64,000 bases of DNA from Rhizobium sp. SG_E_25_P2. GTDB lineage: Bacteria > Pseudomonadota > Alphaproteobacteria > Rhizobiales > Rhizobiaceae. How positions within the stretch are numbered: position 1 is the first letter of the stretch; every line of letters begins with the position of its first letter. Positions 10,049 through 24,463 of the stretch are shown here, one piece after another. The position numbers and the translations under genes were made by a program. The stretch lies in contig NZ_JARXVM010000004.1 in NCBI RefSeq assembly GCF_029892285.1, positions 186,001-250,000 of the forward strand. Direction: 5' to 3'. Below the pieces are notes generated by a model, which saw nothing but the letters and a program-made list of their open reading frames with translations, was not told the origin of the DNA and did not search any database.

Positions 10049-10657
10049 TCAATTGTGCTCGCTCGGGCCCATGATGACGATGCCTTCGGTCGCCTCAACA
10101 TGGCGGACGAAAATGTATTTGTCCTCGCGTCCGTCGGAATGTTTGCGCTTGATGTCGGGCTGCACTGTGCCCGCCACTTTCGCGACGACGATATAGGGGA
10201 CATCTGCTGATAATCCGGCCTCGCAATGGGCGTCGAATTCTTCGAGCGTGCGAGCAGTGAAGGCGTTTTCGACGCCCGCGCCGCGAGCGATGGCGGCGAT
10301 ATCCACCCGGCCGAAGGCGGTATGCGTCGGCGGGCCGCCGATCGACTGGTAGCACTCGTTGTCCCAGACCACCACGAACAGGTTTTTCGGCTGCTCATTG
10401 CCGAGCGTGGCGAGGATGCCGAGATTGAACATCATGCCGCCATCGGTGTCGAGCGAGACGATGCGGCGATGCGGAAGGCCGGCGGCCAATCCAAAAGCCT
10501 GAGGCGTCACGCAGCCGAGTTGTTGCTGGAACAGGCTCGCCTCGCGCATATGCGGGGCGGCGTTGTACCATTCGTCCACCGAGGCCCCGAGCGAGAGGAT
10601 GACGAGCTCGTCTTTCAGGCGCGCAGCGAGCAGTTTCATGCAGTCGTAGCGCTTCAT
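10049..10657 (-). CDS. ThDP-dependent decarboxylase, beta subunit (ComE/phosphonopyruvate decarboxylase type)
   Basis: This 202-residue protein is the pyrophosphate-binding half of a thiamin diphosphate enzyme. LDTDGGMMFN is a version of the G-D-G...N metal and diphosphate motif. It overlaps the alpha-subunit gene by ATGA. Split enzymes of this type include sulfopyruvate decarboxylase ComDE; single-chain relatives include phosphonopyruvate and benzoylformate decarboxylases. The pair should decarboxylate a 2-oxo acid to an aldehyde, which could then be oxidised by the aldehyde dehydrogenase. Its presence in a purine-type operon is unexpected, and the substrate is open. Confidence 0.82.
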   Translation of the reverse strand: MKRYDCMKLLAARLKDELVILSLGASVDEWYNAAPHMREASLFQQQLGCVTPQAFGLAAGLPHRRIVSLDTDGGMMFNLGILATLGNEQPKNLFVVVWDNECYQSIGGPPTHTAFGRVDIAAIARGAGVENAFTARTLEEFDAHCEAGLSADVPYIVVAKVAGTVQPDIKRKHSDGREDKYIFVRHVEATEGIVIMGPSEHN

Positions 10658-11154
10658 CGCACGATCTCCCCGCCGAGCGCGATGGCCGAATGGTAATAGG
10701 CGTTGTAGGACCAGTTATAGGCATCGACGATCGACTGTTCGATCTGCTCCTCTTCGCGGACGATCCGGTAGGGAATGCGCAACGCATTCAGCACCGGCTC
10801 CATGGTGATGCCGTGGGGGATAGCCCACCAATTGTTCTCGCCGAGTTCGCCGCGATAGCTCATCAGCATCACCACCGGAATGCCGGCGCCGAGGCCCATG
10901 CGGGCGAGCGGTTCGACCGAGGCGCGCAGGCCGGAATTCTCCATCACCAGCGCTGCGCGCTTGCCGGACAGGAACACGCCGCCGCAGATAGCAGCGCCTT
11001 CGCCCTCATTGGTGACGCGGATGGTGCGGATGTCAGGATCGGCGTCAAGCGCCGGATAGAGCGGTTTGAAAAGGGAATCGGGCAGGTAGCAGACGATGGA
11101 TACGCCCGCTTTCTTGAGACCCCGCAGCACCGCGTCGACGGCTGATTGCTTCAT
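10654..11154 (-). CDS. ThDP-dependent decarboxylase, alpha subunit (ComD-like)
   Basis: The 166-residue protein is the pyrimidine-binding half of a two-subunit thiamin diphosphate decarboxylase. VTNEGEGAAI contains the conserved Glu that activates the cofactor; CYLPDSLFKPL near the N terminus is the substrate-side loop seen in sulfopyruvate/phosphonopyruvate decarboxylases. It is the first gene after the LysR gene, and the 93-base gap between them carries two inverted repeats, so a local promoter may start here. The length matches ComD-type subunits. It is not a full-length acetolactate synthase or pyruvate decarboxylase, both of which exceed 500 residues. Confidence 0.82.
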   Translation of the reverse strand: MKQSAVDAVLRGLKKAGVSIVCYLPDSLFKPLYPALDADPDIRTIRVTNEGEGAAICGGVFLSGKRAALVMENSGLRASVEPLARMGLGAGIPVVMLMSYRGELGENNWWAIPHGITMEPVLNALRIPYRIVREEEQIEQSIVDAYNWSYNAYYHSAIALGGEIVR

Positions 11155-11204
11155 GATTGTAACTCCGTTCGCTGGGAGCAGAGCAAATTGGAGGTGTTCC
11201 GAAT

Positions 11205-11222
11205 AGACAAGAAAATTTGTCT
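11205..11222. promoter_or_regulatory. Inverted repeat AGACAA-N6-TTGTCT, candidate LysR site
   Basis: Perfect six-base arms separated by six bases, in an AT-rich patch between the lysR gene and the ThDP decarboxylase genes. It lies about 50-70 bases upstream of the alpha-subunit start. LysR regulators bind imperfect T-N11-A dyads of this size. Binding by the adjacent LysR protein is inferred from position only. Confidence 0.45.
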
Positions 11223-11225
11223 GGC

Positions 11226-11246
11226 TTGTTGCGTCATAAGCAACAA
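11226..11246. promoter_or_regulatory. Inverted repeat TTGTTGC-N7-GCAACAA, candidate operator
   Basis: Perfect seven-base arms with a seven-base spacer, ending two bases from the lysR stop codon. It is not GC-rich and has no T-run, which argues against a terminator. It stands just upstream of the first repeat, so the two together could be recognition and activation sites for the neighbouring LysR protein. Confidence 0.45.
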
Positions 11247-11247
11247 C

Positions 11248-12180
11248 TCACGTTGTCGTGGCTGCGCCGAGACGATCGACCGCCTCGGCGAGCAGTTTAC
11301 CGAAAGCGGAGGCGGCGTCGGATATTTCCTTTTCGGAGCGCGACAGCAACATCAGCTTTCGCGGCGGCAGGCGGCTGTCCTTCAGCGGGATAAAATTCAG
11401 CGTGCCCTCGGCAAGCTCCTGTTCGACGCCGACTCGCGTCTGCAGCACTGCGCCAAGATTGCGCTTGGCGAGATCCACCATCAGCCCGATCGAATTGGTG
11501 CGGGCGCGGCGCGAGAGGTCGATGAGCGACCGGTTGAACGCCTCCTCGACCGAGGCGCCCAGCGTCAGCGAAGCGTCCGACAGGATGACCCGCTGGTTGG
11601 CGAGATCGAACAGCTTGAGTTCAGTGCGCTCCGCCATCTCGCTGCCTGGCAGGGCGAGAACGCCGAGCGGCAACAGCGCCTGGGTGATGCGCCGCATGGC
11701 GCGCGGAGGCCGGATATCGAAGACGACGGCGAGATCGCAATCGCCTTCCGCCACCGCTGTCGCCGCCTGTTGAGAACCCATCACCTTGATTTCGACGGTG
11801 ATGTCGGGATGCCGTCCCCAGAACTGCTGTAACGCCCCTGGCATCAGGCCGCGGGCGACGCTTTCCACCACCGCCACCGACAGCGAGCCACGATGCAACC
11901 CGTGCAACTCGTTGATTTCGTTGCAGGCGCGGTTGAGTTCGCCGAGACTCGCGCGGGCGTGATAGAGCATCAATTCGCCGGCGCTGGTGAGTTTCAGCCT
12001 TTGCCGGACGCGTTCGAACAGCGGCGTGCCCAACTCGTCCTCGAGCTGTTTCAGCACGCGGCTGATGGAGGAGGGCGCGACATTGAGCGCGAGCGCCGCC
12101 TGCCGGATCGAGCCCAGCCGCGCCACCAGCTGGAAATAGTGGATGCGGGTGGCGACGAGCCCGAGCCGGAAAGGGTCCAT
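11248..12180 (-). CDS. LysR family transcriptional regulator
   Basis: The 310-residue protein has an N-terminal winged helix-turn-helix (residues about 10-65; GSIRQAALALNVAPSSISRVLKQLE) and a C-terminal periplasmic-binding-like effector domain. The start at 12180 (MDPFRLGL) was chosen because it lies four bases after the adenine deaminase stop; a longer frame would overlap that gene. It is embedded in the minus-strand operon rather than divergent from it, between adenine deaminase and the ThDP decarboxylase. It probably controls the downstream genes through the inverted repeats at 11205-11246, with a purine or a downstream metabolite as possible effector. Confidence 0.93.
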   Translation of the reverse strand: MDPFRLGLVATRIHYFQLVARLGSIRQAALALNVAPSSISRVLKQLEDELGTPLFERVRQRLKLTSAGELMLYHARASLGELNRACNEINELHGLHRGSLSVAVVESVARGLMPGALQQFWGRHPDITVEIKVMGSQQAATAVAEGDCDLAVVFDIRPPRAMRRITQALLPLGVLALPGSEMAERTELKLFDLANQRVILSDASLTLGASVEEAFNRSLIDLSRRARTNSIGLMVDLAKRNLGAVLQTRVGVEQELAEGTLNFIPLKDSRLPPRKLMLLSRSEKEISDAASAFGKLLAEAVDRLGAATTT

Positions 12181-12184
12181 GGCG

Positions 12185-13984
12185 TCAGGCCGGCTCGAAC
12201 AGCGGCTGGATGCGCATCTCAGGCACCAGCACATTGCCCTTGTCGGTGATGCGGATTTCCGGGATCACCGACAGGGGGATCAGGTTGAAGCCCATATAGG
12301 GAATGGTGCAGCCCGCCTTTTCCCATTCGATCTTGAGCTTCTGCACCTCTTCGGCCACCACATGCACACGCTTGTCGGACAGGAGCCCGGCGATCGGCAG
12401 CGGCACCATGGCGGTCACCACGCCGTCCTGCACCACGCAGACGCCGCCCTGATGGGCTTCGATGGCGCGGAGCGCCACCTGCATATCCGCCTCGTTCGCG
12501 CCGGCGATGATGATGTTGTGGCTGTCATGGCCGACCGAAGAGGCGACCGCGCCGCTCTTCAGCGCGAAATTCGACAGGAGGCCATGGGCGACATTGCCCG
12601 AAGATTTGCCATGGCGCTCGATCACGGTGACGAAGCACAGGCCGTGGCGGTCGAACTGCGTCTGCCAGTCGTTCGCAGGCTCGAGCCGGATCTGCTCGTG
12701 ACCGAGAATGATGCCCGGCAATTCGGTGCGGATCGTATGCGCAATCACGGGCGTCGTCGGCAGGTCCGGGGTGAGCTTCAGCTCCTTCGGCAGCTTCACC
12801 GTATGATAGGCGGCTTCGGGATAGCGCCAGAGGTCGGACAGCGCTTCATCCAGGATCGGGGTGATCTTCTTCTGGTCGACAACGAGTTCGCCGCCATACC
12901 AGGTGCTGACGGGCTTGAGATCGTCGTCGAGCAGCACGAGATCGGCGCGTCGGCTGCCGCCCATGCCGCCAATTTCGCCTTCCTTGCCGAAGCGGGTCGC
13001 GCCATGGAGAGAGCCCATCGACCAGGCTTGTTCCTTGGTCATGCCGGCCTTCACCGCTTCGCGCACCACCCAGTCCATGCCGAAGGTCAGAAGGTCGTCG
13101 GCGTCACGGTCGTCGGTGCACACGGCGACGCGCTTGTGCGACGAGCCGAGTTCGGTGATCGTGCGGATGGCGTCCGGCAGCGAATGCCAGGGCGTGGTCG
13201 GCGGGCCGCCGCGCAGGAAGAGCCAGATGCCGGCTTCCAGCATGTCGTCGGCGATATCGCGGTCGATGGCTTCATGGGTGTCGGTGACGCCTGAAGCGGC
13301 GTAGGCCGCGACAAACTCTCTGCCATAGACATGGCCGCAGACCGGCTTGCCGCGCGACAGCGCCGCCGCCAGGATCGCGTGGCTGCGCTCGTCACCCATG
13401 GTCACCGGCACGAAATCCATCTTTTCACCGAGCGCCACGGCCTCGGGCCATTTGTCGAACAGCGCCGCGATCTTGTCGGGCGTCAGGTCGCCGCCGGCGG
13501 TTTCGAGTTCCGGCGAGGTCGCCGGCACGGTCGAGGGCACGGTGAGGAAGATGGACAACGGCGCATGCCGGGCATCCTCCAGCATCGCCTCGACGCCGGC
13601 GACATCCATGACATTGCCGATCTCGTGGCTGTCGCAGAAAATCGTCGTGGTGCCATTGAGGAGTGCGGCCTCCGCATAGGCGCAGGCCGTCACCATCGAG
13701 CTTTCGATATGGATATGCGGGTCGACGAGCCCGGGCGCGATGATGCCCCCCTTGGCGTCATAGCGTTTCGCGCCGCCCTTGTGGGTTCCGGCAGGCTTGA
13801 CGGCGGCGATGCGGCCGCCGGCGATCCAGACTTCCCGGGCTGGCAGGATGCGTTCGGAATAGGTCGAGAGCACGCGCGCGTCGGAGATGACGAGATCGGG
13901 ATCGGCGCGTCCGGAGGCGACATCGGCGAGCCTTCGGGTCATGCTGGCGAGTGGCGCGACGGAAAAACGGGTGAGGGACGTCAT
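12185..13984 (-). CDS. ade: Adenine deaminase
   Basis: The 599-residue enzyme converts adenine to hypoxanthine and ammonia. It has the full Ade architecture: an amidohydrolase barrel with [11 protein letters not shown] near residue 100, CDSHEIGNV, a late [10 protein letters not shown], and a C-terminal Ade-specific domain (SSVGHDSHN). The length matches the bacterial family. The start has an AGGAG Shine-Dalgarno sequence seven bases upstream. It follows the GST-like gene and precedes lysR by four bases. Together with guanine deaminase in the divergent arm it marks the region as purine catabolic. Confidence 0.94.
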
Positions 13985-14002: not shown

Positions 14003-14632
14003 TCAGTGATAATCGGGAATGCCCGGCATGGTCTTGAACCCGTCGAGCGTGCGGAACCGGCGGATCCAGCGCCGCAGCGCCGGGAATTCGTCGTGATCGA
14101 TGCCGAAATCGCGCGACAGCGCGAAGATCGGAAACAGCGTGACATCGGCGATCGTGGCGTGGTCGGCCGCAAACCATTCAACGCCGTCCATCTGGCGAAG
14201 GGTCATGTGGTCGTCCATGGCGCGAAAGGCTTCGCGCGCAGCGCTTCTCAGCGCATCGAGATCGCCCGGCTCACCAAACAGCGCCACAAGCCTGGCCTGC
14301 ATGGCAGGCGCGAGCGCCGAGGCGGAGAAATTCAGCCAGCGCATGGTTTCGCCGAAAGCCCTGAGCTCCATCGGCAGGAACTGCCCCGATGGATCGTAGG
14401 CCTTGGCGAGATAGGCGAGGATGGCCTCCGGGCCATACAGCGTCAACTCGCCATCCTTTATCACCGGCAGGGAGCCCAGCGGCGACAGCGCTCGCATGGC
14501 GGGGCCGAGATGTTCCTTGCCCGGAACCATGTCGACAGCCACGACCTCGTGCGGCGTCTTGAGCATCGACAGCAGCAGCCTGACGCGGTAACTGGAATCG
14601 TCGAGTTCGTAATTGTAGAGAGTGAGAGACAT
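14003..14632 (-). CDS. Glutathione S-transferase-like protein (possible NdmE-type partner)
   Basis: The 209-residue protein has the thioredoxin-like N-terminal GST domain (MSLTLYNYELDDSSYRVRL, with SLPVIKDGELTLYGPEAIL) and a helical C-terminal domain. Its start overlaps the stop of the Rieske protein gene as TAATG, so the two are made together. In caffeine-degrading Pseudomonas a GST-like protein (NdmE) forms a complex with the Rieske-less oxygenase NdmC and the Rieske-bearing reductase NdmD. Here a GST-like protein is coupled to a Rieske protein in an operon with a Rieske-less oxygenase, so a structural role is at least as likely as glutathione chemistry. That role is inference. Confidence 0.85.
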   Translation of the reverse strand: MSLTLYNYELDDSSYRVRLLLSMLKTPHEVVAVDMVPGKEHLGPAMRALSPLGSLPVIKDGELTLYGPEAILAYLAKAYDPSGQFLPMELRAFGETMRWLNFSASALAPAMQARLVALFGEPGDLDALRSAAREAFRAMDDHMTLRQMDGVEWFAADHATIADVTLFPIFALSRDFGIDHDEFPALRRWIRRFRTLDGFKTMPGIPDYH

Positions 14633-15324
14633 TACGCCACCTTCGCCATGGGAGTGACAGGGGCGGTTTCGATTGCGCGCCGGGCGTTCTCGGCCCATTT
14701 GGCTATGCTTTTCCGCGCAGCGGCGTCGACCGCGCCGATGGCCGCGATATGCAGCGCGCTTTTATCTGCCGCGACCGACTGACCGGCGATAAGAAGTTTG
14801 ACCTCACCGCTCGTGAAAAGCACAGCGCCCGAAGACAGCGTCTCCATCGACACATCCGCGCCGTCGATTGGCAGGCAAGGCAACAGGGGCGCAATGGCCT
14901 CGACCGGACGGTCGATATAGAGGCTGCGGATCGGCGTGACGTCGTCGGATATGGCAGGCAGCGCCGAAGCGTCCGCCGTCTCCTTGAGACAGGTCCAGAT
15001 CACGCCGCCGCGCTCAGTGACCGCATAGGACGGGATCTTGATGGTCGAGGGAACCTCAAGGTCGGGATGCGCCGGAATATAGCGGCATTGGCCGCCCGTA
15101 TCGTATTGCCAACCGTGATAGAGGCAGGCGATGTGATCGCCGCGCACAAAGCCGAAGCTCATGCGCATGCCGCGATGGGGACAGCGATCTTCCCAGACAT
15201 GCGCATTGCCGCTGTTGTCGCGCCAGACTACGATTTCAAACCCATTGATCTGTGTGCCTGCTGAGGTTCCGGCCTCAATCGAGGCGCTGAGCGCTACCGG
15301 CGTCCAGCCGCTTGCCGCTGTCAT
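14632..15324 (-). CDS. Free-standing Rieske 2Fe-2S protein
   Basis: This 230-residue protein has an oxygenase-type Rieske domain at residues about 5-115 with ligands C48 and H50 (DRCPHRG) and C67 and H70 (CLYHGW). The remaining 110 residues contain no iron-ligand motif and no reductase motif, so it is neither a complete oxygenase nor an NdmD-type reductase. The start at 15324 has an AAGGAG Shine-Dalgarno site seven bases upstream. Two oxygenase catalytic subunits in this region (6182-7051 and 20876-21736) lack their own Rieske cluster, so this protein probably delivers electrons to them. The C-terminal domain is unfamiliar to me and may mediate docking. Confidence 0.87.
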   Translation of the reverse strand: MTAASGWTPVALSASIEAGTSAGTQINGFEIVVWRDNSGNAHVWEDRCPHRGMRMSFGFVRGDHIACLYHGWQYDTGGQCRYIPAHPDLEVPSTIKIPSYAVTERGGVIWTCLKETADASALPAISDDVTPIRSLYIDRPVEAIAPLLPCLPIDGADVSMETLSSGAVLFTSGEVKLLIAGQSVAADKSALHIAAIGAVDAAARKSIAKWAENARRAIETAPVTPMAKVA

Positions 15325-15366
15325 CTTCTTGCTCCTTCGTATCCGATCCCGGGGATCATTCAATTC

Positions 15367-15609
15367 TCAATTCCTGACATCCGCGCGAGTGACCTCGCGG
15401 ATGATGCAATCCCTTGGCCCCAGGCTGCAGGCCATTTCGAACATGTCCACCAGGGCCTCCTGGCCGCTCACCCGCACGGTCGCCCGGCCGGAGTCGCAAG
15501 CGTCTATGGCGAGGGCGAGATCGAGCCGCGCCGCCCTGTGGCGCGCAAACTCGATGAAGCTTTCGCTGGCGATGTCGCCGATAAAGGCAAACTTGATCTC
15601 TTCGGTCAC
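15367..15609 (-). CDS. Small acylphosphatase-like protein, catalytic residues not conserved
   Basis: About 80 residues with an acylphosphatase-type ferredoxin fold pattern: a first strand with ASESFIEFARHRAARLDL, then ATVRVSGQEALVDMFEMAC and GPRDCIIREV. In true acylphosphatases the first loop has a GFR motif and an Asn after the helix; here the Arg position reads Ile and the Asn position Asp, so phosphatase activity is doubtful. I chose the GTG at 15609 because an AGGA lies seven bases upstream; an ATG at 15669 in the same frame is possible. It is the first gene of the purine-type minus operon, 42 bases before the Rieske gene. Function unknown. Confidence 0.62.
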   Translation of the reverse strand: MTEEIKFAFIGDIASESFIEFARHRAARLDLALAIDACDSGRATVRVSGQEALVDMFEMACSLGPRDCIIREVTRADVRN

Positions 15610-15705: not shown

Positions 15706-15724
15706 ATGGCTAAAAAATAGCCAT
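15706..15724. promoter_or_regulatory. Inverted repeat ATGGCTA-N5-TAGCCAT
   Basis: Perfect seven-base arms around an A5 spacer, about 100 bases upstream of the acylphosphatase-like gene on the minus strand. The AT-rich centre and lack of a following T-run fit a repressor or activator site for the leftward operon better than a terminator. The cognate regulator is not known. Confidence 0.45.
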
Positions 15725-15892
15725 GCACCCGATTTCATCACTGTAGACTTTGGCTTGCGCCGATTTCAAGCGATTTTTTCGCCCTACTTGTTGCGCTCAG
15801 CGCATCAACCGCGTCGAAATTTGAGGTCTATGCGGAACATCCTCTATTTGAAAGGCTGCCGATCCGGCGGTTCCTGATCCTCTGGCGGCGGT

Positions 15893-15918
15893 GCGCGCTG
15901 GTTATGCGTTGAGCGCGC
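15893..15918. promoter_or_regulatory. Inverted repeat GCGCGCT-N12-AGCGCGC
   Basis: Seven-base arms with a twelve-base centre. The dyad is centred about 100 bases upstream of the expected transcription start of the sigma-54 promoter, the usual distance for an enhancer-binding protein. It does not match the classic NtrC consensus (TGCAC dyad). Confidence 0.35.
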
Positions 15919-15942
15919 CGACAGCGATGGAGTTGCAAGGGT

Positions 15943-15961
15943 TTGCGGGGAATTCCCGCAA
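15943..15961. promoter_or_regulatory. Inverted repeat TTGCGGG-N5-CCCGCAA
   Basis: Perfect seven-base arms with the spacer GAATT, centred about 55 bases before the expected start of transcription and directly upstream of the sigma-54 -24 element. It may bind an activator, or a repressor that blocks polymerase. Confidence 0.45.
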
Positions 15962-15979
15962 GGGCTGCGACTGCGGGCC

Positions 15980-15996
15980 TTGGCACAGGAGTTGCT
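15980..15996 (+). promoter_or_regulatory. Sigma-54 (RpoN) promoter for the BMP importer operon
   Basis: TTGGCAC, five bases, TTGCT matches the -24/-12 consensus, with GG at 15982-15983 and GC at 15994-15995 exactly ten bases apart. It lies 63 bases upstream of the binding-protein start, leaving room for a leader of about 50 bases. RpoN promoters often control nitrogen-source use, which fits purine uptake and deamination. Confidence 0.78.
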
Positions 15997-16058
15997 TCAG
16001 TTACGTCGAAAGCGTCGGAAGCTAGGACTATCCGGCGGAAAACCAAAAAGGGGTTCAC

Positions 16059-17174
16059 ATGATCGATCTGCGTAGTCTTTCCCGCCGCGGCTTCCTCAAC
16101 ATGGCTGCCGCCGGCGCCGCATCCACCATGCTGCCGGGCGGCTTTGCCCGTTCGGCGATGGCAGCCACCCCGCTCGCGGCCGTCAAGGAAGAAGACGCCG
16201 TTATCGGCTTTGGCCATGTCGGCCCGATCACCGACGAAGGCTGGACCTGGAGCCACCATCAGGGCCTGCTCGCCGTCAAGGAAGCCTATCCGAAGCTCAA
16301 GAAGGTTCTCGAAGTCGAGAACGTTCCCTATTCCGCCGATGCGACGCGCACCTATCGCCAGTTCGTCAGCGAAGGCGCCAACATGATCTTCGATACGTCG
16401 TCGACCGGCGACTTCCTGCATGAAGTGGTCAAGCGCGCGCCTGATACGGCCTTCCTGGAATGCAACGGCCATATCCTGATGGATAATCTCGGCTGGTATT
16501 ATCTGGCTCACTGGTATCCGACCTATGTCCTGGGCGTTGCCGCCGGCATGTTGTCGAAGACAGGCAAGCTCGGTTACGTCGCCTCCTTCCCGGTCGCCTC
16601 GGTCTATGCCTCGACCAACGCTTTCCTGATGGGCGCCCGCACCGTCAATCCCAACGCGACCTGTAAGGCCATCGCGATCAATTCCTGGTTCGATCCGCAG
16701 GCCGCCTCGCAGGCCGGCACCGCGCTGATCGACGATGGTTGCGACTTCCTGTTCGGCATCATGGACGAGGCCGCCTATCTGCAGGTGGCTGAAAAGCGCG
16801 GCGTCTGGGCGGCGATGTGGAACACCGACATCCGCCGTTACGGCCCGAATTCCTACGTGTCCTCGATCATTATCGACTTCAAGAAGTTCTATGTCGATCA
16901 GGTCGGCAAGCGTCTCGCCGGAACCTGGACGCCGGCCGAAACCCTGTTCGGCATGGGCGCCGGCGTCGACCGCGACAAATGGGGCGAGAAGGTCCCGGCC
17001 GAAGTTGGCAAGGCGGCTGACGCCGTGCGCGACAAGATCCTCGGCGGCTGGTCGCCGTTCACGGGCGAACTCAAGGACTCCAAGGGCAATGTCAAGGTCG
17101 CCAAGGGCCAGACAATGACTGAGCTGGAGCTTTACAACTGGGATTGGTCCGTCGAAGGCGTCACCGGCCTCTGA
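16059..17174 (+). CDS. BMP family ABC transporter substrate-binding protein (Tat-exported)
   Basis: The 371-residue periplasmic protein belongs to the PnrA/BMP family that binds nucleosides or purine bases. Its N terminus carries a twin-arginine signal (SRRGFLNMAAAGAA) with cleavage expected after about residue 35, then the start of the BMP domain (AVIGFGHVGPITDEGWTW). The following genes encode an ATPase and two permeases of the same importer. A strong stem-loop after the stop probably lets this gene be expressed above the membrane components. Purine-type ligand is inferred from the deaminases downstream and divergent. Confidence 0.92.
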   Translation: MIDLRSLSRRGFLNMAAAGAASTMLPGGFARSAMAATPLAAVKEEDAVIGFGHVGPITDEGWTWSHHQGLLAVKEAYPKLKKVLEVENVPYSADATRTYRQFVSEGANMIFDTSSTGDFLHEVVKRAPDTAFLECNGHILMDNLGWYYLAHWYPTYVLGVAAGMLSKTGKLGYVASFPVASVYASTNAFLMGARTVNPNATCKAIAINSWFDPQAASQAGTALIDDGCDFLFGIMDEAAYLQVAEKRGVWAAMWNTDIRRYGPNSYVSSIIIDFKKFYVDQVGKRLAGTWTPAETLFGMGAGVDRDKWGEKVPAEVGKAADAVRDKILGGWSPFTGELKDSKGNVKVAKGQTMTELELYNWDWSVEGVTGL

Positions 17175-17186
17175 TCCCTTTTCTTG

Positions 17187-17211
17187 GGAAGGGCGCAGTC
17201 TGCGCCCTTCC
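17187..17211 (+). terminator. Intercistronic stem-loop after the BMP binding-protein gene
   Basis: A perfect eleven-base stem (GGAAGGGCGCA with its complement) closes a three-base loop, followed by a short CTTTC. It stands 12 bases after the binding-protein stop and 34 bases before the ATPase start. It may be a partial terminator or an mRNA-stabilising hairpin that raises binding-protein level. Confidence 0.72.
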
Positions 17212-17244
17212 TTTCCCGCATGTCCCCATATCCGGTCACGCCTG

Positions 17245-18825
17245 ATGTCAGAACATCCGATCCGCTATGTTGCTCCGCCCGGCGCTGCCCCTCTCGTGCA
17301 GTTGAAAGGCATCGCTAAGTACTTCCCCGGTGTCATCGCCAACGAGGATGTGGATCTCGACGTCATGCCGGGAGAAATTCATGCGCTTCTGGGCGAGAAC
17401 GGGGCCGGCAAATCCACGCTCATGAACATCCTCACCGGCATCTATCAGCCAGATGGCGGCGAAATCATCATTGACGGTTATGCGCGGGAATTTTCCACGC
17501 CGCAGCATGCCATTGCCGCTGGCATCGGGATGGTTCACCAGCATTTCAAGCTGGTCAACGCCTTCACCGTCGCGGAAAACATCCATCTCGGCTGGAGCGA
17601 AACGCCGCGCCGGGCCTCTGCTGCCGTGCTCGAAGCGCGCACCGCCGATCTTGCCGCCAAATTCAATCTTGACGTCCGGCCCGCGGCCCGCATCACCGAA
17701 TTGTCGACCGGCGAGCAGCAGCGCGTCGAAATCCTGCGCGTTCTGGCGCGCCGGGCGAAGGTTCTCATTCTCGATGAGCCGACAGCCGTTCTGACCCCCG
17801 GAGAAGCGCGCGAACTGTTCAAGGCGTTGCGCGAGTTCGTCTCGACCGGCAACGCCGTCATTTTCATCTCCCACAAGCTCGACGAAGTGCTGGAGATTTC
17901 CGACCGCATCACCATTTTGCGCGGCGGCCGCAAGATCGCCACCGAAAACGCCGAGGACTGTACGCCCGCCAAGCTTGCCCGCTTGATGGTGGGCCGCGAC
18001 ATCGTGCTCGCCGATATGCGCGGCCGTCCCGAAGGCGCCGCCCCGATGTCGGCGACCCCGGTGCTCAGCCTGCGCAATGTCATCGCGCTCAATGATCTGG
18101 GCGACGAGGCGCTGCATGGCCTGTCGCTGGATGTCCGCGCCGGCGAGATCGTCGGCGTCGCAGGCGTCGCCGGCAACGGTCAGCGCGAACTCTCTCAGGT
18201 GCTGACCGGCACCCGCGGCATTGCGTCCGGGGAAATCGTGCTCGACGGACAGGTGATAGGTCGCGCCAATGCCGCCGATTTTGTCGCGCGCGGCGTCGGA
18301 CACATTCCGGAGGACCGTCTGCATAGCGGGCTCGCGCCGGCGCTCAGCGTCGCCATCAACGTGGTGATGCGGGAATATGGCGCGCCGCCTGTCACCAAAG
18401 GCGGCGTCTATCGTCCTGGCGCGGCGACCGCGCTTGCCAAGGAGATCGCGGCGGCGGCAGACGTCGCCATTCCCGATTTCGCCATGCCGATCCGTAATCT
18501 CTCCGGCGGCAACCAGCAGCGCCTCGTCGCCCGCCGTGAGATGCGTGTAGCCACCAAGGCTCTGGTCGCCGCCTATCCCAGCCGGGGCCTCGATGTCGGC
18601 GCCATCAACACCATGCTGCGCTATATCGTCGAACTGCGCGACGCCGGCGCCGGCATCATTCTGATTTCAGAGGATCTCGAAGAATTGCTCAATCTCTCCG
18701 ATCGCATCGCAGTCCTCTATGAAGGAAAGATTATGGGCGTCGTGGACAACGACACTGTCGACATCGAGGAGATCGGTCTGCTGATGGGCGGCCGCAGCAA
18801 GGACGGGGGCGCCGTCCATGGCTAA
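17245..18825 (+). CDS. BMP-type ABC transporter ATP-binding protein (two nucleotide-binding domains)
   Basis: The 526-residue protein has two ABC ATPase halves. The first has Walker A GENGAGKST near residue 50, signature LSTGEQQRVEIL and Walker B VLILDEPTAVL; the second keeps LSGGNQQRL but its Walker A-like VAGNGQRE and Walker B ALVAAYPSRGLDVGA are the degenerate forms usual for sugar/nucleoside importers of this class. It energises uptake with the two permeases encoded next; its 3' end overlaps the next gene by eight bases. Confidence 0.93.
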   Translation: MSEHPIRYVAPPGAAPLVQLKGIAKYFPGVIANEDVDLDVMPGEIHALLGENGAGKSTLMNILTGIYQPDGGEIIIDGYAREFSTPQHAIAAGIGMVHQHFKLVNAFTVAENIHLGWSETPRRASAAVLEARTADLAAKFNLDVRPAARITELSTGEQQRVEILRVLARRAKVLILDEPTAVLTPGEARELFKALREFVSTGNAVIFISHKLDEVLEISDRITILRGGRKIATENAEDCTPAKLARLMVGRDIVLADMRGRPEGAAPMSATPVLSLRNVIALNDLGDEALHGLSLDVRAGEIVGVAGVAGNGQRELSQVLTGTRGIASGEIVLDGQVIGRANAADFVARGVGHIPEDRLHSGLAPALSVAINVVMREYGAPPVTKGGVYRPGAATALAKEIAAAADVAIPDFAMPIRNLSGGNQQRLVARREMRVATKALVAAYPSRGLDVGAINTMLRYIVELRDAGAGIILISEDLEELLNLSDRIAVLYEGKIMGVVDNDTVDIEEIGLLMGGRSKDGGAVHG

Positions 18826-19864
18826 GGTCCGTCTCCAACGACTTCCCTCCGCCCATCCCGGCATGGCGCTCGGCGCCCGAATCGCGGCTATCGCGCTCGC
18901 CTTGATTTTCGCCGGCGTCATCCTCGCGTTTGCAGGCCACAATCCGCTCATGCTGGGCATGGAGGTTATCGGGGCCTCGTTCGGCTCATCCTTCGGCATG
19001 GAGGATCTGGGGCTCCTGGTCATCCCGCTTATTCTCACCGGGCTTTCGGTGACGGTGGCGCAACAGATCGGCGCCTGGAATATCGGCGCTGAAGGCCAGT
19101 TTTACGCCGGCGCATTTGCTGCCACCGCCGTCGGACTGTTCATCCCCTTGCCGGACGGTTTGAGCCTGGTCGCAATGTTCATCGCCGGCGCGATCGGCGG
19201 GCTGATCTGGATCTTGATCCCGACGCTTGCGCGCGCCTACGCCAATGTCAGCGAACTCATCACGACCCTGCTTCTGAACTTCGTCGCCATTCTGCTGGTC
19301 TATTATGTCTCGACCGACGCCTGGCGCGAGCGGGGAGGGGTGGCCAATTCCGCCACGCCGCGCATCCCGGCCGAAATGCCGGAATTCTGGGGCCTGGTGC
19401 ATTGGGGCCTGCCGATCGCGGTGATCCTTGCCATCATCACGGCGCTGATCTTCAACTTCACCAAATGGGGCTATGAAATCCGGTTGATCGGCTCCAACCC
19501 TTCAGCGGGCCGTTACGCGGGCATCGCCTCGCGGCGCTATATGATCCTGGTCATGCTCGCATCCGGCGCGATCGCCGGCGTCGCCGGCATGCTGGAGATC
19601 GCCGGCACGGTGCATCGCCTGCAGGGCGGAATTTCCAACAATTACGGCTATCTCGGCATCATGGTGGCGGTGCTGGCGCGCGGCTCTTCGGTCGGTGTGA
19701 TCTTCTCGGGCGCGCTGATGGCCTTCATTCTCAATTCCGGCATCATCCTGCAGACGGAGGGTCTCACCACCTCCGCCGTGCTCGCCATGACCGGCCTTAT
19801 CCTCTTCCTCACCGCGATCGGCGATGAACTCGCCCATTACCGCATCGTGCGCGACAAGGCCTGA
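18818..19864 (+). CDS. BMP-type ABC transporter permease 1
   Basis: A 348-residue integral membrane protein of the RbsC/BPD_transp_2 family with about nine or ten hydrophobic segments. The conserved NIGAEGQFYAGA and ELITTLLLNFVAILLVYY segments are typical of nucleoside importers (YufP/NupP type). It overlaps the ATPase gene and precedes the second permease by eleven bases, forming the heterodimeric channel. Confidence 0.93.
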   Translation: MAKVRLQRLPSAHPGMALGARIAAIALALIFAGVILAFAGHNPLMLGMEVIGASFGSSFGMEDLGLLVIPLILTGLSVTVAQQIGAWNIGAEGQFYAGAFAATAVGLFIPLPDGLSLVAMFIAGAIGGLIWILIPTLARAYANVSELITTLLLNFVAILLVYYVSTDAWRERGGVANSATPRIPAEMPEFWGLVHWGLPIAVILAIITALIFNFTKWGYEIRLIGSNPSAGRYAGIASRRYMILVMLASGAIAGVAGMLEIAGTVHRLQGGISNNYGYLGIMVAVLARGSSVGVIFSGALMAFILNSGIILQTEGLTTSAVLAMTGLILFLTAIGDELAHYRIVRDKA

Positions 19865-19875
19865 AAGGACACGCC

Positions 19876-20814
19876 ATGGAACTCCTGACCGGTCTCCTCA
19901 CCACTGCTTTTCTCGCTGGCGGCGTGCTGTCGCTCGCGGCCATCGGCGAGGTGATTTCCGAACGCGTCGGCGTGGTCAATCTCGGCGTCGAGGGCCTGAT
20001 GGCGATGGGCGCGGTAACCGCCGTCGTCACCGTCACCGCCGCGCCCTATCCGATGCTGGGTTTCCTTGCCGCGCTCGTGGTTGGCGCGCTGCTCGGCGTG
20101 CTCTTCGCCACCGCCACCGTGGCGCTTCGCGCCAACCAGGTGCTGTGCGGACTGGCGCTGACGCTGATGGGCACCGGCCTCGCCCAGACTATCGGCAAAG
20201 CTTATTCGGGAATGCCGGTGCCGGCCACCTTCGAGGGCGTTGCGATCCCGCTTCTGTCCTCCATCCCGATCCTCGGCAAGGCCTTTTTCAGCCAGAACAT
20301 TCTGGTCTATCTCATCTACATCATCCTGCCGTTCGGCCTCTCCTTTCTGATGTTCCGCACCCGACACGGCCTCAATATGCGCGCGGTCGGCGAAAATCCG
20401 GCGGCCGCCGACGCCGCCGGCATTCCGGTCAATCTCATCCGTTTCGGCTATGTTGCGCTGGGTTCGGCCCTGGCTGCGGGGGCGGGTGCCTATCTCGTTC
20501 TCGCTTTCGTGCCGTCCTGGTCGGATGGCGTTGTCTCCGGCCGCGGCTGGATTGCCGTGGCGTTGGTGATCTTCGCCGGCTATCGACCCATTCCGGCGGC
20601 GCTTTCGGGCCTGTTGTTCGGCTTCATCACTGCGCTCGGCTTTGTCGGCCAGGCGCGCGGCTGGCCGATCGCGCCGGCCTTCCTGTCGATGCTGCCCTAT
20701 GCCGGCACGATCGCCTTCATCATCGCGCCCGTCGTGGCCTGGCAGCGGATGAAGCGGCTTATGGCGGCCCCGGCGGCGCTCGGCGAACCCTATTTCCGGA
20801 ATGTGAGGTCGTGA
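19876..20814 (+). CDS. BMP-type ABC transporter permease 2
   Basis: A 312-residue membrane protein, shorter partner of the preceding permease (YufQ/NupQ type). Conserved features are ERVGVVNLGVEGLMAMGA in the N-terminal half and GENPAAADAAGIPV, the cytoplasmic coupling loop. It completes the importer; a 61-base gap then leads into the oxygenase and deaminase genes. Confidence 0.93.
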   Translation: MELLTGLLTTAFLAGGVLSLAAIGEVISERVGVVNLGVEGLMAMGAVTAVVTVTAAPYPMLGFLAALVVGALLGVLFATATVALRANQVLCGLALTLMGTGLAQTIGKAYSGMPVPATFEGVAIPLLSSIPILGKAFFSQNILVYLIYIILPFGLSFLMFRTRHGLNMRAVGENPAAADAAGIPVNLIRFGYVALGSALAAGAGAYLVLAFVPSWSDGVVSGRGWIAVALVIFAGYRPIPAALSGLLFGFITALGFVGQARGWPIAPAFLSMLPYAGTIAFIIAPVVAWQRMKRLMAAPAALGEPYFRNVRS

Positions 20815-20875
20815 ACCGCTTGCCTCTGCGCGCGGACGGCGTCATGACAGGACAAGAGCTGAAGGGAGCACGGAC

Positions 20876-21736
20876 ATGACCATCGCCACAGACAAAGCGT
20901 CGCTCGACCAGTGGTATGTGATCGAGACCGAGGCGGCGCTGCCGGTGGGCACGTCGCCCAACCGCCTGCTCGGTGTCGATCTCGCGGTAACGCGGACCGA
21001 AGACGGCGACATCACCGTCATGGCGGAGGGCCGGGCCGAGCCCTTACCGATCCGCAAGCGCTTCGGCTTTGTCTGGACATCGCTCGGCGAACCCGCAGGC
21101 GAAATCTTCCCGGTGCCTGAAGCCGACGAACCCGATCGCCGCTATGTGCCCTGTGGAGCCGTTGCGGTGAAGGCGTCCGGTCTGCGCATCATCGAGAATT
21201 TCCTCGACATGGCGCATTTCCCCTTCGTGCACACCGACATTCTCGGCTCGGAGCCGCATACCGAAGTCGAACACTACAATGTCGAGATCCGCCGCGACGT
21301 CGACGAGGTCTGGGCGACCAATTGCCAGTTCTTCCAGCCGCAGGCGGCGCTCTCGGCCACCGACGGGCTCATGACCCAATATATCTACCGGGTGATGACG
21401 CCGTTCACGACGTTGCTCTACAAGACATGCCCGAATTCCGCCAATCGCTGGGATGTGATCTGTCTCTTCGTGCAGCCGCTCGATCCCGATCGCTGCCGTG
21501 CGCATCCGGTCATGTATCTGATCGACGACGTCTCGACGACGCCGGCGCTGATCCAGTTCCAGCAGCTGATCTTCCTGCAGGACCGCATCATTCTCGAAAA
21601 CCAGCGGCCGGTGCTGCTGCCGATGGAGCCGCGCTCGGAAATTCCGACCCGCGCCGACGCCTCCTCGATCGCCTATCGCCGCTGGCTCAAGGAAAAGGGC
21701 GTCACCTATGGCACCTCGCTGATGAACGCGGCCTGA
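20876..21736 (+). CDS. Rieske oxygenase catalytic subunit lacking the Rieske cluster, copy 2
   Basis: A 286-residue paralogue of the protein encoded at 6182-7051. Iron-site residues are D111, H114 and H119 in ENFLDMAHFPFVH, with D236 in FLQDRIILENQ as probable third ligand. The N terminus again keeps WY and the LLG strand, but neither C-x-H nor C-x2-H of a Rieske cluster is present. It follows the importer operon and directly precedes an amidohydrolase gene (four bases apart), the same pairing as in the leftward arm. It would need the Rieske protein from the divergent operon or an unseen donor. The two copies may act on different positions or different substrates, as NdmA/B/C do on methylxanthines. 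Confidence 0.85.
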   Translation: MTIATDKASLDQWYVIETEAALPVGTSPNRLLGVDLAVTRTEDGDITVMAEGRAEPLPIRKRFGFVWTSLGEPAGEIFPVPEADEPDRRYVPCGAVAVKASGLRIIENFLDMAHFPFVHTDILGSEPHTEVEHYNVEIRRDVDEVWATNCQFFQPQAALSATDGLMTQYIYRVMTPFTTLLYKTCPNSANRWDVICLFVQPLDPDRCRAHPVMYLIDDVSTTPALIQFQQLIFLQDRIILENQRPVLLPMEPRSEIPTRADASSIAYRRWLKEKGVTYGTSLMNAA

Positions 21737-21740
21737 CGTA

Positions 21741-23081
21741 ATGGCTGCGTCCGCGACCCAAATCGATCTCGCTTTCATCAACGCCACGGTGCTGCCGATG
21801 GGCGAGGCCGCCGAGATCGCCAACGGCGTGGTGGCGGTGCGCGGCGACAAGATCGCCGCCGTTGGCGCGGCTTCCGAGATCGATGTATCAGGCGCGACAC
21901 GCATCATCGATGCGAATGGACGCGTGGTGATGCCGGGTTTCGTCAATTGTCACACCCATATCGCCTCCAACATGCTGTTGCGCGGCCTGCTGGAAGATGT
22001 GCAGCTGTTCGAATGGCTGCAGACCATGTGGCGGCTCAAGCGCAATTTCGACGAGGAAACGCTCTATTGGGCAAGCCTGATGGGCCTCGTGGAGATGGTG
22101 AAGTCGGGTATGACCTGCTTCAACGAGCATTTCGACGGCTATCGCGTCGAGCCTCAGACCGAGGCGCTGAAGAAGGTCCCGCTCCGCGCCACGCTCGGTT
22201 ACGGCTTTGCCGATCGCGGCATCTATGCGCCAATCACCGATTGGTCGTGGAAGACGCTGGACAGGTTCGGCGATAAAGTCTCCGCGCATCATCGCAGCGG
22301 CGATGGCCGCATCCATGTCGGCCTGTCGCCGCATGCGCCTTACTCCTGTGGACCGGACATGTATCGCAAGGTGCGGGATGTCGCCGACGCCTATAGCCTC
22401 GCGATCCACACGCATCTCGCCGAGGGGCCGCAGGAGATGGCCTATATGCGCGAAACCTATGGGACGAGCCCGGTGAAATGGCTGCATTCCCTCGGCTTCC
22501 TGAAGCCGGATGTCACTGCGGCGCATTGCACGCAGCTCGACGATGACGATATTCGTATACTGGCGGAGACGGGAACCAAGATCGGTCATTGCCCCTGCTG
22601 CAACGCCAAGCTCGATTCCGGCACGCTGAGGCTGAGATGCTGCCAGGAGGCGGGCGTCACCGTCGGGCTCGCCACCGATGGCCCGGCCAGCCACAACAGC
22701 TTGGACATGTTTCAGGAAATGAAATTCGCGGGCATGATCCACAAGGACAAGACCCACGACGTCGAATTCCTGAAGACGCGCGACTTGCTGGAAATGGCCA
22801 CCTGCGAGGCGGCGAAAGCGATGAACCGGCCGGAGACCGGGCGTTTGACGCCCGGCGCCAAGGCGGATCTGATCATGATCGATCTCGACAAGCCGCATAC
22901 TCTGCCGGTCTATGATGTCGCGGCCGCGCTCGTCTATTCATCGCGCGCCGACGATGTCGAGATGACGGTGGTCGACGGCAAGATCCTGATGGAAAACCGC
23001 GCCGTGCTTGGCATCGATGAGCGGGAAATCCGGGCGCGGTTTCGCGAGGCGGCGCTTTCGCTGCGCGACCGCAGCCTTTGA
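21741..23081 (+). CDS. Amidohydrolase of the TRZ/ATZ deaminase family, copy 2
   Basis: A 446-residue metal-dependent hydrolase with CHTHIASNM (metal His pair near residue 72-74), IHTHLAEG, AAHCTQL and LATDGPASHNS, the standard ligand set. The SHNSLDMFQEMK segment is typical of AtzA/TrzA/guanine-deaminase-like enzymes. It is different from the guanine deaminase encoded directly downstream, so the operon has two deaminase-type enzymes with presumably different substrates. Pairing with an oxygenase subunit suggests a modified heterocycle. Confidence 0.86.
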   Translation: MAASATQIDLAFINATVLPMGEAAEIANGVVAVRGDKIAAVGAASEIDVSGATRIIDANGRVVMPGFVNCHTHIASNMLLRGLLEDVQLFEWLQTMWRLKRNFDEETLYWASLMGLVEMVKSGMTCFNEHFDGYRVEPQTEALKKVPLRATLGYGFADRGIYAPITDWSWKTLDRFGDKVSAHHRSGDGRIHVGLSPHAPYSCGPDMYRKVRDVADAYSLAIHTHLAEGPQEMAYMRETYGTSPVKWLHSLGFLKPDVTAAHCTQLDDDDIRILAETGTKIGHCPCCNAKLDSGTLRLRCCQEAGVTVGLATDGPASHNSLDMFQEMKFAGMIHKDKTHDVEFLKTRDLLEMATCEAAKAMNRPETGRLTPGAKADLIMIDLDKPHTLPVYDVAAALVYSSRADDVEMTVVDGKILMENRAVLGIDEREIRARFREAALSLRDRSL

Positions 23082-23101
23082 AAACGCCAAGAGGCGAGAC
23101 A

Positions 23102-24463
23102 ATGACCGTGCGCAACAAGACCCTACTCGCCAATGCTTTTCATGCGCCGACGCCCTGGAGCGTCGAGTGCCTCACTGACGCGCTGATCACCGTCGACGCT
23201 GACGGCGACATTGCCGACGTGATCGGGCCTGAGCATTCCAACTATGCGGGAAAGCGCGCGGCGCTTTCGGCGAGCGGGGACTTGGAGGTCCTGCCGCGTG
23301 GCTCCTATCTGCTGCCCGGTTTCGTCGATTGCCATGTGCATGCGCCTCAATATCCGCAGCTCGGCAATGCGCTCGATGTTCCCTTGGAAGTCTGGCTGCA
23401 GAAATACACTTTTCCGCTCGAAGCCCGCTATGCCGACGCTGCCTTTGCCCGCCGCGCTTACTCGCTGCTCGTTCAGGACATGCTGGCCAACGGCATTACG
23501 ACTGCGCTCTATTTCGCCACCATTCATCAGGAGGCGACGCGGCTTCTGGTCGATATCTGCCTTGAGAAGGGGCAGCGGGCATTGGTCGGCAAGGTGGCGA
23601 TGGACAATGCCGAGAGCTGCCCGGATTATTATCGCGATGGATCAGCCGCCGAGGCTGTCGAAGGGACGCGGGCGCTGATCGATTATGTCAGGAGCCATCC
23701 GGCCAATCGCGATCATCTCGTGCATCCCGTGGTGACGCCGCGCTTCATCCCCTCTTGCACCGATGCGGCGCTGGAAGATCTCGGCGCGCTGGCGAAGGAA
23801 TGCGGCTGTCATGTGCAGACCCATTGTTCGGAAAGCGACTGGGAGCATGGCTATGTGCTCGAACGTCACGGCATGACCGACGCCGAGAGCCTCGATCGCT
23901 TCGGCCTGCTCGGCCGGCGAACCATGCTTGCGCATTCCAACCTGCTGACGGCGTCTGATATGGAGCTGATCCGCACGCGTCAGGCGGCTGTGGCGCATTG
24001 CCCGCTGTCGAACGGTTATTTCGCCGGCGCGGTGTTTCCACTGCGCGCGGCGCTGGAAAAGGGGTTGAATGTCGGCTTGGGCACGGACATTTCCGGCGGC
24101 CCTTCCGCCTCGATGCTGGAAAACGCCCGCGCCGCTATCCTCGTCTCGCGCATGCTGGAAACTGGAGTCGATCCCGCAAAGACTGGCGCAGAGCGCGCGT
24201 CCGGCGCGCCCACGCGCATCGATTTCCGCCAGGCCTTCCATATCGCCACCGCCGGCGGCGCAAAGGCGCTCGATCTTCCGGTCGGCCGCTTCGAACCCGG
24301 CTGCAAATTCGACGCCATCGTCATTGATACCGAGGCGGAGAAGGGCACGATGCGGCTGTTCGACGAGTTCGACAGCGGCGAAGCGATCCTGCAGAAGATC
24401 ATTTTCACTGCGTCCCGCGCCAATATTTCCGACGTCTATGTGTCTGGCCGAAAGGTCGCCTGA
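23102..24463 (+). CDS. guaD: Guanine deaminase
   Basis: The enzyme converts guanine to xanthine and ammonia. Visible features are CHVHAPQYPQLGNALDVP with the metal His pair, the WLQKYTFPLEARYAD segment characteristic of guanine deaminases, QTHCSESDWEH, LAHSNLL and GLGTDISGG with the metal-binding Asp. About 453 residues, the normal length. I chose the ATG at 23102 with GAGG seven bases upstream; a TTG at 23078 that overlaps the preceding stop is possible. Xanthine formed here could enter the molybdenum hydroxylase of the opposite arm. Confidence 0.92.
   Translation: MTVRNKTLLANAFHAPTPWSVECLTDALITVDADGDIADVIGPEHSNYAGKRAALSASGDLEVLPRGSYLLPGFVDCHVHAPQYPQLGNALDVPLEVWLQKYTFPLEARYADAAFARRAYSLLVQDMLANGITTALYFATIHQEATRLLVDICLEKGQRALVGKVAMDNAESCPDYYRDGSAAEAVEGTRALIDYVRSHPANRDHLVHPVVTPRFIPSCTDAALEDLGALAKECGCHVQTHCSESDWEHGYVLERHGMTDAESLDRFGLLGRRTMLAHSNLLTASDMELIRTRQAAVAHCPLSNGYFAGAVFPLRAALEKGLNVGLGTDISGGPSASMLENARAAILVSRMLETGVDPAKTGAERASGAPTRIDFRQAFHIATAGGAKALDLPVGRFEPGCKFDAIVIDTEAEKGTMRLFDEFDSGEAILQKIIFTASRANISDVYVSGRKVA

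Follow-up and report, generated by a model that had tools for sequence, protein, structure and literature searches.

In Pseudomonas sp. ADP, the use of nitrogen-rich heterocycles through the atzR-atzDEF system is governed by a LysR-type regulator together with NtrC and sigma-54, with sigma-54 driving the regulator gene itself. Among the matches listed in our search of the atzR-atzDEF literature, NtrC is not mentioned. Rhizobial glnK-amtB promoters, which we take to be NtrC targets in the genomes considered here, combine a sigma-54 core with an AT-rich array of TGC/GCA half-sites that lies roughly 130 to 65 bp before the -24 element. As far as the consulted part of its published description goes, the NfeR1 promoter of S. 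meliloti is of the sigma-70 type, directs the synthesis of an sRNA and is controlled both by NtrC, which represses it, and by the LysR-type regulator LsrB (PMC10746234). The consulted part of that source also gives the footprinted S. meliloti NtrC motif as TGC-N11-GCA with an A/T-rich centre (PMC10746234).

The locus described here, the upstream region of an importer operon in the soil bacterium Rhizobium sp. SG_E_25_P2, resembles each of these systems in part. Like glnK-amtB, it has a sigma-54 core with AT-rich TGC/GCA half-sites upstream. However, the boxes before the importer in this and related loci start at a variable distance of about 95 to 330 bp from the core and overlap a divergent promoter, and many glnK cores carry TTGAA or TTGTA at -12, unlike the importer core. 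With NfeR1, to the extent covered by the consulted text (PMC10746234), it shares an A/T-rich TGC-N11-GCA near a LysR-type T-N11-A box, but here the target is a sigma-54 importer operon that is presumably activated. The pairing of a LysR-type regulator with NtrC and sigma-54 would be common to this locus and atzR-atzDEF, whereas genes and layout differ. Judged by titles and the beginnings of abstracts, none of the papers listed in our literature searches deals with this purine-type cluster; PMC3596328 contains none of the six purine and deaminase terms sought, and the abstract, outline and one passage of PMC13054789 mention neither Rhizobium nor Rieske proteins nor ABC transporters. The reading that we favour, with a probability of about 0.7, is that this purine-type scavenging cluster is placed under nitrogen control by NtrC and sigma-54, through boxes at 15707-15740, and under substrate control by a LysR-type regulator.

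The source DNA is a stretch of 64 kb (GCF_029892285.1, NZ_JARXVM010000004.1, positions 186,001-250,000 of the forward strand), hereafter the window, to which all coordinates refer. It holds the following genes:

16059-17174, plus strand: BMP/PnrA-like solute-binding protein of the importer (PF02608; nearest solved structures 6pi5, AtzT, and 3s99)
17245-18825, plus strand: importer ATPase (PF00005, two stretches)
18818-19864 and 19876-20814, plus strand: two importer permeases (PF02653)
20876-21736, plus strand: VanA_C catalytic half of a split Rieske oxygenase (PF19112; without C-x-H...C-x2-H)
21741-23081, plus strand: TRZ/ATZ-type amidohydrolase (below the family cut-off)
23078-24463, plus strand: guanine deaminase (TIGR02967, above the family cut-off)
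15367-15609, minus strand: short conserved ORF that opens the divergent operon (we chose the GTG at 15609 as its start)
14632-15363, minus strand: Rieske protein, divergent gene
14003-14698, minus strand: GST-like protein, divergent gene
12185-13984, minus strand: adenine-deaminase-like protein, divergent gene (score below the family cut-off)
11248-12180, minus strand: LysR-type regulator (PF00126 and PF03466 on the longer frame 11248-12234; start chosen by us)
10049-11154, minus strand: subunits of a TPP enzyme (sulfopyruvate/phosphonopyruvate decarboxylase-like, below family cut-offs), behind the second copy of the module described below

The importer is of the BMP/PnrA type, with a PF02608 binding protein, a two-stretch ABC ATPase and two permeases. 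In the consulted part of PMC6834077, AtzT is reported to bind guanine with a KD of about 0.11 uM, and the Brucella protein 3s99 is modelled with adenine. According to our mapping of residues, made from an alignment and the published residue numbers, the importer protein keeps the aromatic sandwich of AtzT and the Ser97 position (W62, W210, S114), but three guanine contacts are changed (E165 to S181, N218 to I234 and N220 to D236), so that guanine itself is not assured as the ligand. The imported compound is likely a purine or a similar heterocycle: the PF02608 family, the two nearest structures and the guanine deaminase within the operon all bear out the purine-type import that had been predicted.

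For comparison, an initial ortholog search of 61 genomes, the own genome included, gave 8 strong orthologs, and 73 relative loci with flanks of up to 10 kb were then collected, which makes 74 loci with the window. Thirteen belong to acetic-acid bacteria and were excluded; in these, no sigma-54-type site scoring at least 10 was found within 400 nt. The remaining 61 loci are of the Hyphomicrobiales type (one is titled Rhodobacterales, and L106 stops within the importer gene); they are kin to each other, and the counts given below are not independent.

The promoter core stands directly before the importer:

15980-15996, plus strand: sigma-54 core promoter TTGGCACAGGAGTTGCT (GG at 15982-15983, GC at 15994-15995; conserved in 57 of 61 loci)

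Its sequence has the GG-N10-GC core and matches TGGCAC-N5-TTGC in letters and exact positions, and the distance from the TTGC end to the importer ATG at 16059 is 63 bases, precisely as the original prediction had it. It is the top sigma-54-type GG-N10-GC site of the window, with a score of 12 out of 13, followed by two others at 11. In the whole 5.56-Mb genome, TGGCAYN5TTGCW occurs at 11 places against 5 for the reversed control pattern, so that a single match is weak when taken alone. What makes the core convincing is where it lies and how well it is conserved: in 57 of 61 loci a GG-N10-GC site with a score of 10 or more out of 13 is located 40-115 bases 5' of the start codon, whereas 40 resampled sets averaged 0.95 such loci and never exceeded 3. 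The core stays at -24/-12 in relatives while the flanking DNA diverges, and rpoN is encoded in the own genome. Judged by this comparison across relatives, the sigma-54 promoter that 15980-15996 provides for the importer operon (16059-24463) is both real and conserved.

Four loci, L090, L091, L093 and L111, are without a canonical core. In L090, L091 and L111 an extra gene precedes the importer; the copy in L091, the only one profiled, is an adenosine deaminase (TIGR01430, PF00962), and that in L090 reads in two frames. Inspection of longer regions, which yields weaker evidence, placed CTGGCCTGAACATTGCT with its start 50 nt (L090) and 42 nt (L091) before the start of the extra gene and, in L093, 311 nt before the importer, while the longer region inspected in L111 held no recognisable sigma-54 site. 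An rpoN match above the cut-off was found in the genomes of 8 of 16 loci that lack the canonical site (the check covered 16 of 17 such loci, 13 from acetic-acid bacteria plus these four, with L098 left out as the same strain as L095). Since rpoN is kept in those 8 genomes, loss of the site there does not equal loss of the sigma factor.

Upstream of the core lie two inverted repeats, which the original prediction had regarded as binding sites for an activator:

15893-15918, no strand: dyad 1, GCGCGCT-N12-AGCGCGC (perfect 7-bp inverted repeat, loop 12; not conserved)
15943-15961, no strand: dyad 2, TTGCGGG-N5-CCCGCAA (perfect 7-bp inverted repeat, loop 5; kept only in L040)

Both are indeed present and perfect, and they are the sole perfect 7-bp inverted repeats with loops of 3-20 in 15893-16007. 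However, when this stretch is resampled with a Markov model, 3.3% of the sequences contain two or more such repeats, and the share among all 115-nt pieces of the window is 5.9%; the dyads are thus not clearly above chance. Allowing two mismatches, dyad 1 was found upstream of no other importer gene among the 74 loci, and dyad 2 elsewhere only in L040, with 1 mismatch; L039, with an importer as close as that of L040 (98% identity), has neither dyad. This lack of conservation, in the face of a conserved core promoter, speaks strongly against the dyads as the enhancer. They are best treated as incidental and probably are a red herring, the recognition of which spares footprinting in the wrong place.

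It had further been suggested that a dedicated bacterial enhancer-binding protein (bEBP) acts on the dyads. Such a protein, encoded elsewhere, would bind 15893-15961 and activate the promoter; the dyads are perfect and well placed, and the own genome does hold candidates beyond NtrC, NtrX and DctD. Its six real bEBPs are NtrC (702 bits with TIGR01818, cut-off 558.6), NtrX (NF051870, above cut-off), a DctD-type protein, a further response-regulator type (RR531), a XylR/V4R type and an AcoR-like protein, where the last four labels were assigned from domains and likeness; two further weak activator-domain matches resemble Clp-type ATPases. As had been stated, no bEBP is encoded in the window, and no sigma-54 activator gene was found in the rest of contig C4 either. 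A tblastn search (E 1e-10) with the six own bEBPs returned no match in the 73 flanks and, in the window, one weak receiver-domain match only. An activator-domain search covered 50 of 56 carrier genomes, of which the eight with the fewest matches were then examined in full. Two of these, G084 (L063; 5.7 Mb) and G089 (L069; 6.1 Mb, metagenome-derived), have rpoN, and their bEBPs are limited to NtrC, NtrX and a DctD-like protein (52% identity with the own DctD), which argues that no extra bEBP is common to the carriers. Five others (G072, G079, G087, G093 and G105) have NtrC, NtrX and DctD with RR531 as the single extra bEBP. A dedicated activator for this promoter is unlikely on these grounds, and one that works through dyads without conservation, and of a kind found in 5.9% of window pieces, very unlikely indeed.

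The same survey bears on NtrC. Of the eight carriers examined in full, seven encode it, as does the own genome; in the eighth, G086 (L065), a 4.1-Mb metagenome-derived assembly, NtrC and NtrX were not found, while a DctD-like bEBP and rpoN are present. If G086 is complete, it would count against NtrC. However, ntrC and ntrX are only about 4 kb apart in G084 and G089, which are relatives of G086, so that one missing contig would explain the absence of both, and this is the likely cause. Finding no NtrC in G086 nonetheless lowers slightly the reading in favour of NtrC and raises slightly one that invokes NtrX or a DctD-like regulator.

The original prediction was right that the dyads do not fit the NtrC consensus, but NtrC-like boxes do exist about 250 bp before the core, outside the stretch that it had considered:

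15707-15723, plus strand: putative NtrC box 1, TGGCTAAAAAATAGCCA (palindrome; degenerate TGC-N11-GCA; homologous place; best match here to the 19-column glnK matrix)
15724-15740, plus strand: putative NtrC box 2, TGCACCCGATTTCATCA (adjoins box 1, starts 17 bp apart; one mismatch, below the A/T cut-off)

The evidence for these boxes comes from the relatives. An exact AT-rich box is present in 37 of 57 upstream regions, compared with 34 of 6702 control pieces, 5 of 288 AT-matched pieces and, in local shuffles, a mean of 1.0 and a maximum of 4. With up to one mismatch the numbers are 56 of 57 against 771 of 6702 and 61 of 288, with shuffles giving a mean of 15.7 and a maximum of 27. Two adjacent boxes with starts 17 bp apart are also frequent: allowing one mismatch of 12, 27 of 57 loci have such a tandem, compared with 6 of 3154 control pieces; allowing two, the figures are 44 of 57 (a few of the 44 lie elsewhere in the region) and 147 of 3154. 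Both the A/T cut-off and the tandem rule were chosen with the block already in view. The window is the only locus of the 57 without a box at up to one mismatch under the A/T cut-off, and it is among the poorest members with respect to the tandem: TGGCTAAAAAATAGCCA and TGCACCCGATTTCATCA together have 3 mismatches of 12, a result that 940 of 3154 control pieces equal or better, and the window's own copy is not significant alone. We accept its boxes as NtrC-type only because they are located at the homologous place of the relatives' boxes; stronger counterparts occur, for example, in L060 and L070 (Rhizobium lusitanum). The classical TGCACC-N5-GGTGCA, allowing three mismatches, gave scattered matches only and was set aside; the rhizobial form is the looser TGC-N11-GCA.

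A matrix that was not tuned on this block gives a similar picture. It was trained, in versions of 19 and 34 columns, on 28 glnK-amtB promoters from 28 genomes, with upstream coding sequence trimmed; the exact box occurs in 10 of these 28 regions and, with up to one mismatch, in 26. By the 19-column version, the upstream region of the importer outscores the rest of its locus in 37 of 57 cases, while 9 of 239 AT-matched pieces attain the score, and the mean is 12.2 in the 57 loci with a core against 1.5 in the 17 without. The match also ranks first in L091 and L093, which have no canonical core directly before the importer. Against resampled sequences, p 0.05 was attained in 35 of 57 loci with 19 columns and in 33 of 57 with 34; for the window, p was 0.06 and 0.41, respectively, with the 34-column version preferring another place. 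On this comparative case, the enhancer is likelier to reside in the boxes at 15707-15740 than in the dyads.

Other sigma-54 sites of the own genome provide a reference. The strict sites presumably precede dctA, an nrtA-like gene, the importer, rutA, an ABC binding-protein gene, a GntR gene, an alcohol dehydrogenase gene and the gene of a nitrogen-starvation protein, by names that we read from the first residues of the products; the nrtA-like, rutA and starvation genes among them are apparent nitrogen-scavenging genes, in keeping with nitrogen control of the importer, and the remaining TGGCAYN5TTGCW sites look like chance. The glnK matrix scores at the rutA and GntR sites and weakly at those of the nrtA-like, second binding-protein and starvation genes. 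In the case of the nrtA-like and the starvation gene, only 32 and 27 nt, respectively, separate the best match from the core downstream of it, which is odd for an enhancer. The promoters of dctA (2.2; null 95% point 6.2) and of the alcohol dehydrogenase gene do not score. As a separate observation, the gene of the AcoR-like bEBP (G000:C27, L174) adjoins the sigma-54-type alcohol dehydrogenase promoter, which has an upstream dyad of its own.

It is conceivable that the sigma-54 promoter is driven instead by NtrX or by a DctD-like regulator, or that NtrC acts on it from solution without a specific site. All three bEBPs occur in G084 and G089, only the DctD-like one was found in G086, and the window's own boxes are degenerate. 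Moreover, NtrC reportedly activates the PatzR promoter of Pseudomonas ADP in a site-independent manner. Yet the published NtrC motif is strongly enriched in the relatives, the presumably DctD-driven dctA promoter does not score with the glnK matrix, and G086 is a small, metagenome-derived assembly. We regard such an arrangement as unlikely, if with a real chance of being correct, and prefer NtrC acting through the boxes.

The boxes overlap a probable divergent promoter on the other strand:

15739-15746, minus strand: probable -10 region of the divergent sigma-70 promoter, CTACAGTG (conserved block)
15765-15770, minus strand: probable -35 of the divergent promoter, CTTGAA (in most loci with both, the LysR-type box is about 24 bp away)

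An IHF-like reading of TTCAAG was set aside in favour of this probable -35 element. The boxes could serve the divergent promoter instead of the importer. Between them and the sigma-54 core lies a further conserved module, which recurs before the TPP-enzyme operon:

15789-15839, plus strand: module copy 1, TGTTGCGCTCAGCGCATCA (15789-15807), N20, CTATGCGGAACA (15828-15839)
11195-11245, minus strand: module copy 2, TGTTGCTTATGACGCAACA, N20, CTATTCGGAACA (the ATG of the TPP-enzyme operon follows after 40 nt)

The module has the form TGTTGC-N7-GCAWCA-N20-CTATKSGGAACA and spans 51 bp. Both of its parts were found before the importer, with up to two mismatches, in 36 of the 61 loci, and in each of these their starts are separated by exactly 39 bp, whereas the distance of the CTATKSGGAACA block from the core varies from 127 to 210 bp. 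CTATKCGGAACA occurs without mismatch twice in the whole genome, both times in the cluster, although at up to one mismatch there are 40 places against 32 for a control; the TGTTGC-N7-GCAWCA dyad has three genome sites, two of them in the cluster. This dyad contains TGC-N7-GCA and hence T-N11-A, the signature of LysR-type sites. The module and the LysR gene go together: with presence taken as at least one copy with up to four mismatches per locus and the gene sought in the fetched flanks only, 43 of the 61 loci have both, 18 neither and none is discordant. Four loci (L043, L044, L048 and L089) have only a poor copy in front of the importer, with 5-6 mismatches; L111 has none there, and in L046 the second copy is absent. 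From these patterns we infer that the LysR-type regulator controls the divergent operon and the TPP operon through the module, and probably adds control by the compound itself; perhaps the module also provides a second importer promoter.

Parts of the module were also considered as bEBP sites, but where the LysR gene is missing they are missing too, and the sigma-54 core remains. One could go further and suppose that the sigma-54-like site is unused and that a LysR-activated sigma-70 promoter at the module (15789-15839) transcribes the importer, since the module has a rigid layout, recurs 40 nt upstream of another operon and accompanies the LysR gene. Against this, the core is retained in 15 of the 18 loci without a LysR gene in the flanks and without the module, and its conservation is far beyond chance; we consider this scenario very unlikely.

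In the mechanism that we favour, nitrogen shortage would lead phosphorylated NtrC to bind the tandem AT-rich TGC-N11-GCA-type boxes at 15707-15740. Bound NtrC, via DNA looping, would then drive open-complex formation by sigma-54 polymerase at 15980-15996, from which the importer operon 16059-24463 would be transcribed. Independently, the LysR-type regulator would bind the 51-bp module at 15789-15839 and 11195-11245 and confer substrate-specific control on the divergent enzyme and TPP-enzyme operons, and perhaps on a second importer promoter as well. Within this explanation binding, looping, the response to nitrogen, the ligand, the operon extent and the direction of LysR control are inferred parts. 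A more speculative and rather doubtful extension is that one NtrC tandem, lying over the divergent sigma-70 start region, serves both as a remote enhancer of the importer (95-330 bp) and as an operator of the divergent operon. With the LysR module in between, this would amount to a two-input gate for nitrogen status and substrate, of which the sigma-54 half is kept and the LysR half is lost in some lineages. The cluster adds a conserved and testable case to the rhizobial nitrogen-scavenging genes, with a likely activator, its site and a co-regulator named, so that nitrogen limitation offers itself as the condition under which to look for the function of this purine-type catabolic cluster, as yet uncharacterised.

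The enzymes of the cluster have features of their own. The small ORF of 80 residues heads the divergent genes in 61 of 61 loci, and its longer reading frame matched no Pfam family. The two-subunit TPP enzyme of this purine-type cluster is 86-99% identical to that of the window in the other loci that hold it. The Rieske oxygenase is split over two genes in divergent operons (14632-15363, minus strand; 20876-21736, plus strand), both found in 61 loci. The aligned part of the Rieske protein has the C-x-H...C-x2-H iron-sulfur motif in all 62 loci with a match, while that of the VanA_C protein has D-x2-H-x3/4-H in 61 of 61 and the cluster motif in none of the 61. Such a stable split looks unusual and may merit more attention than the promoter.
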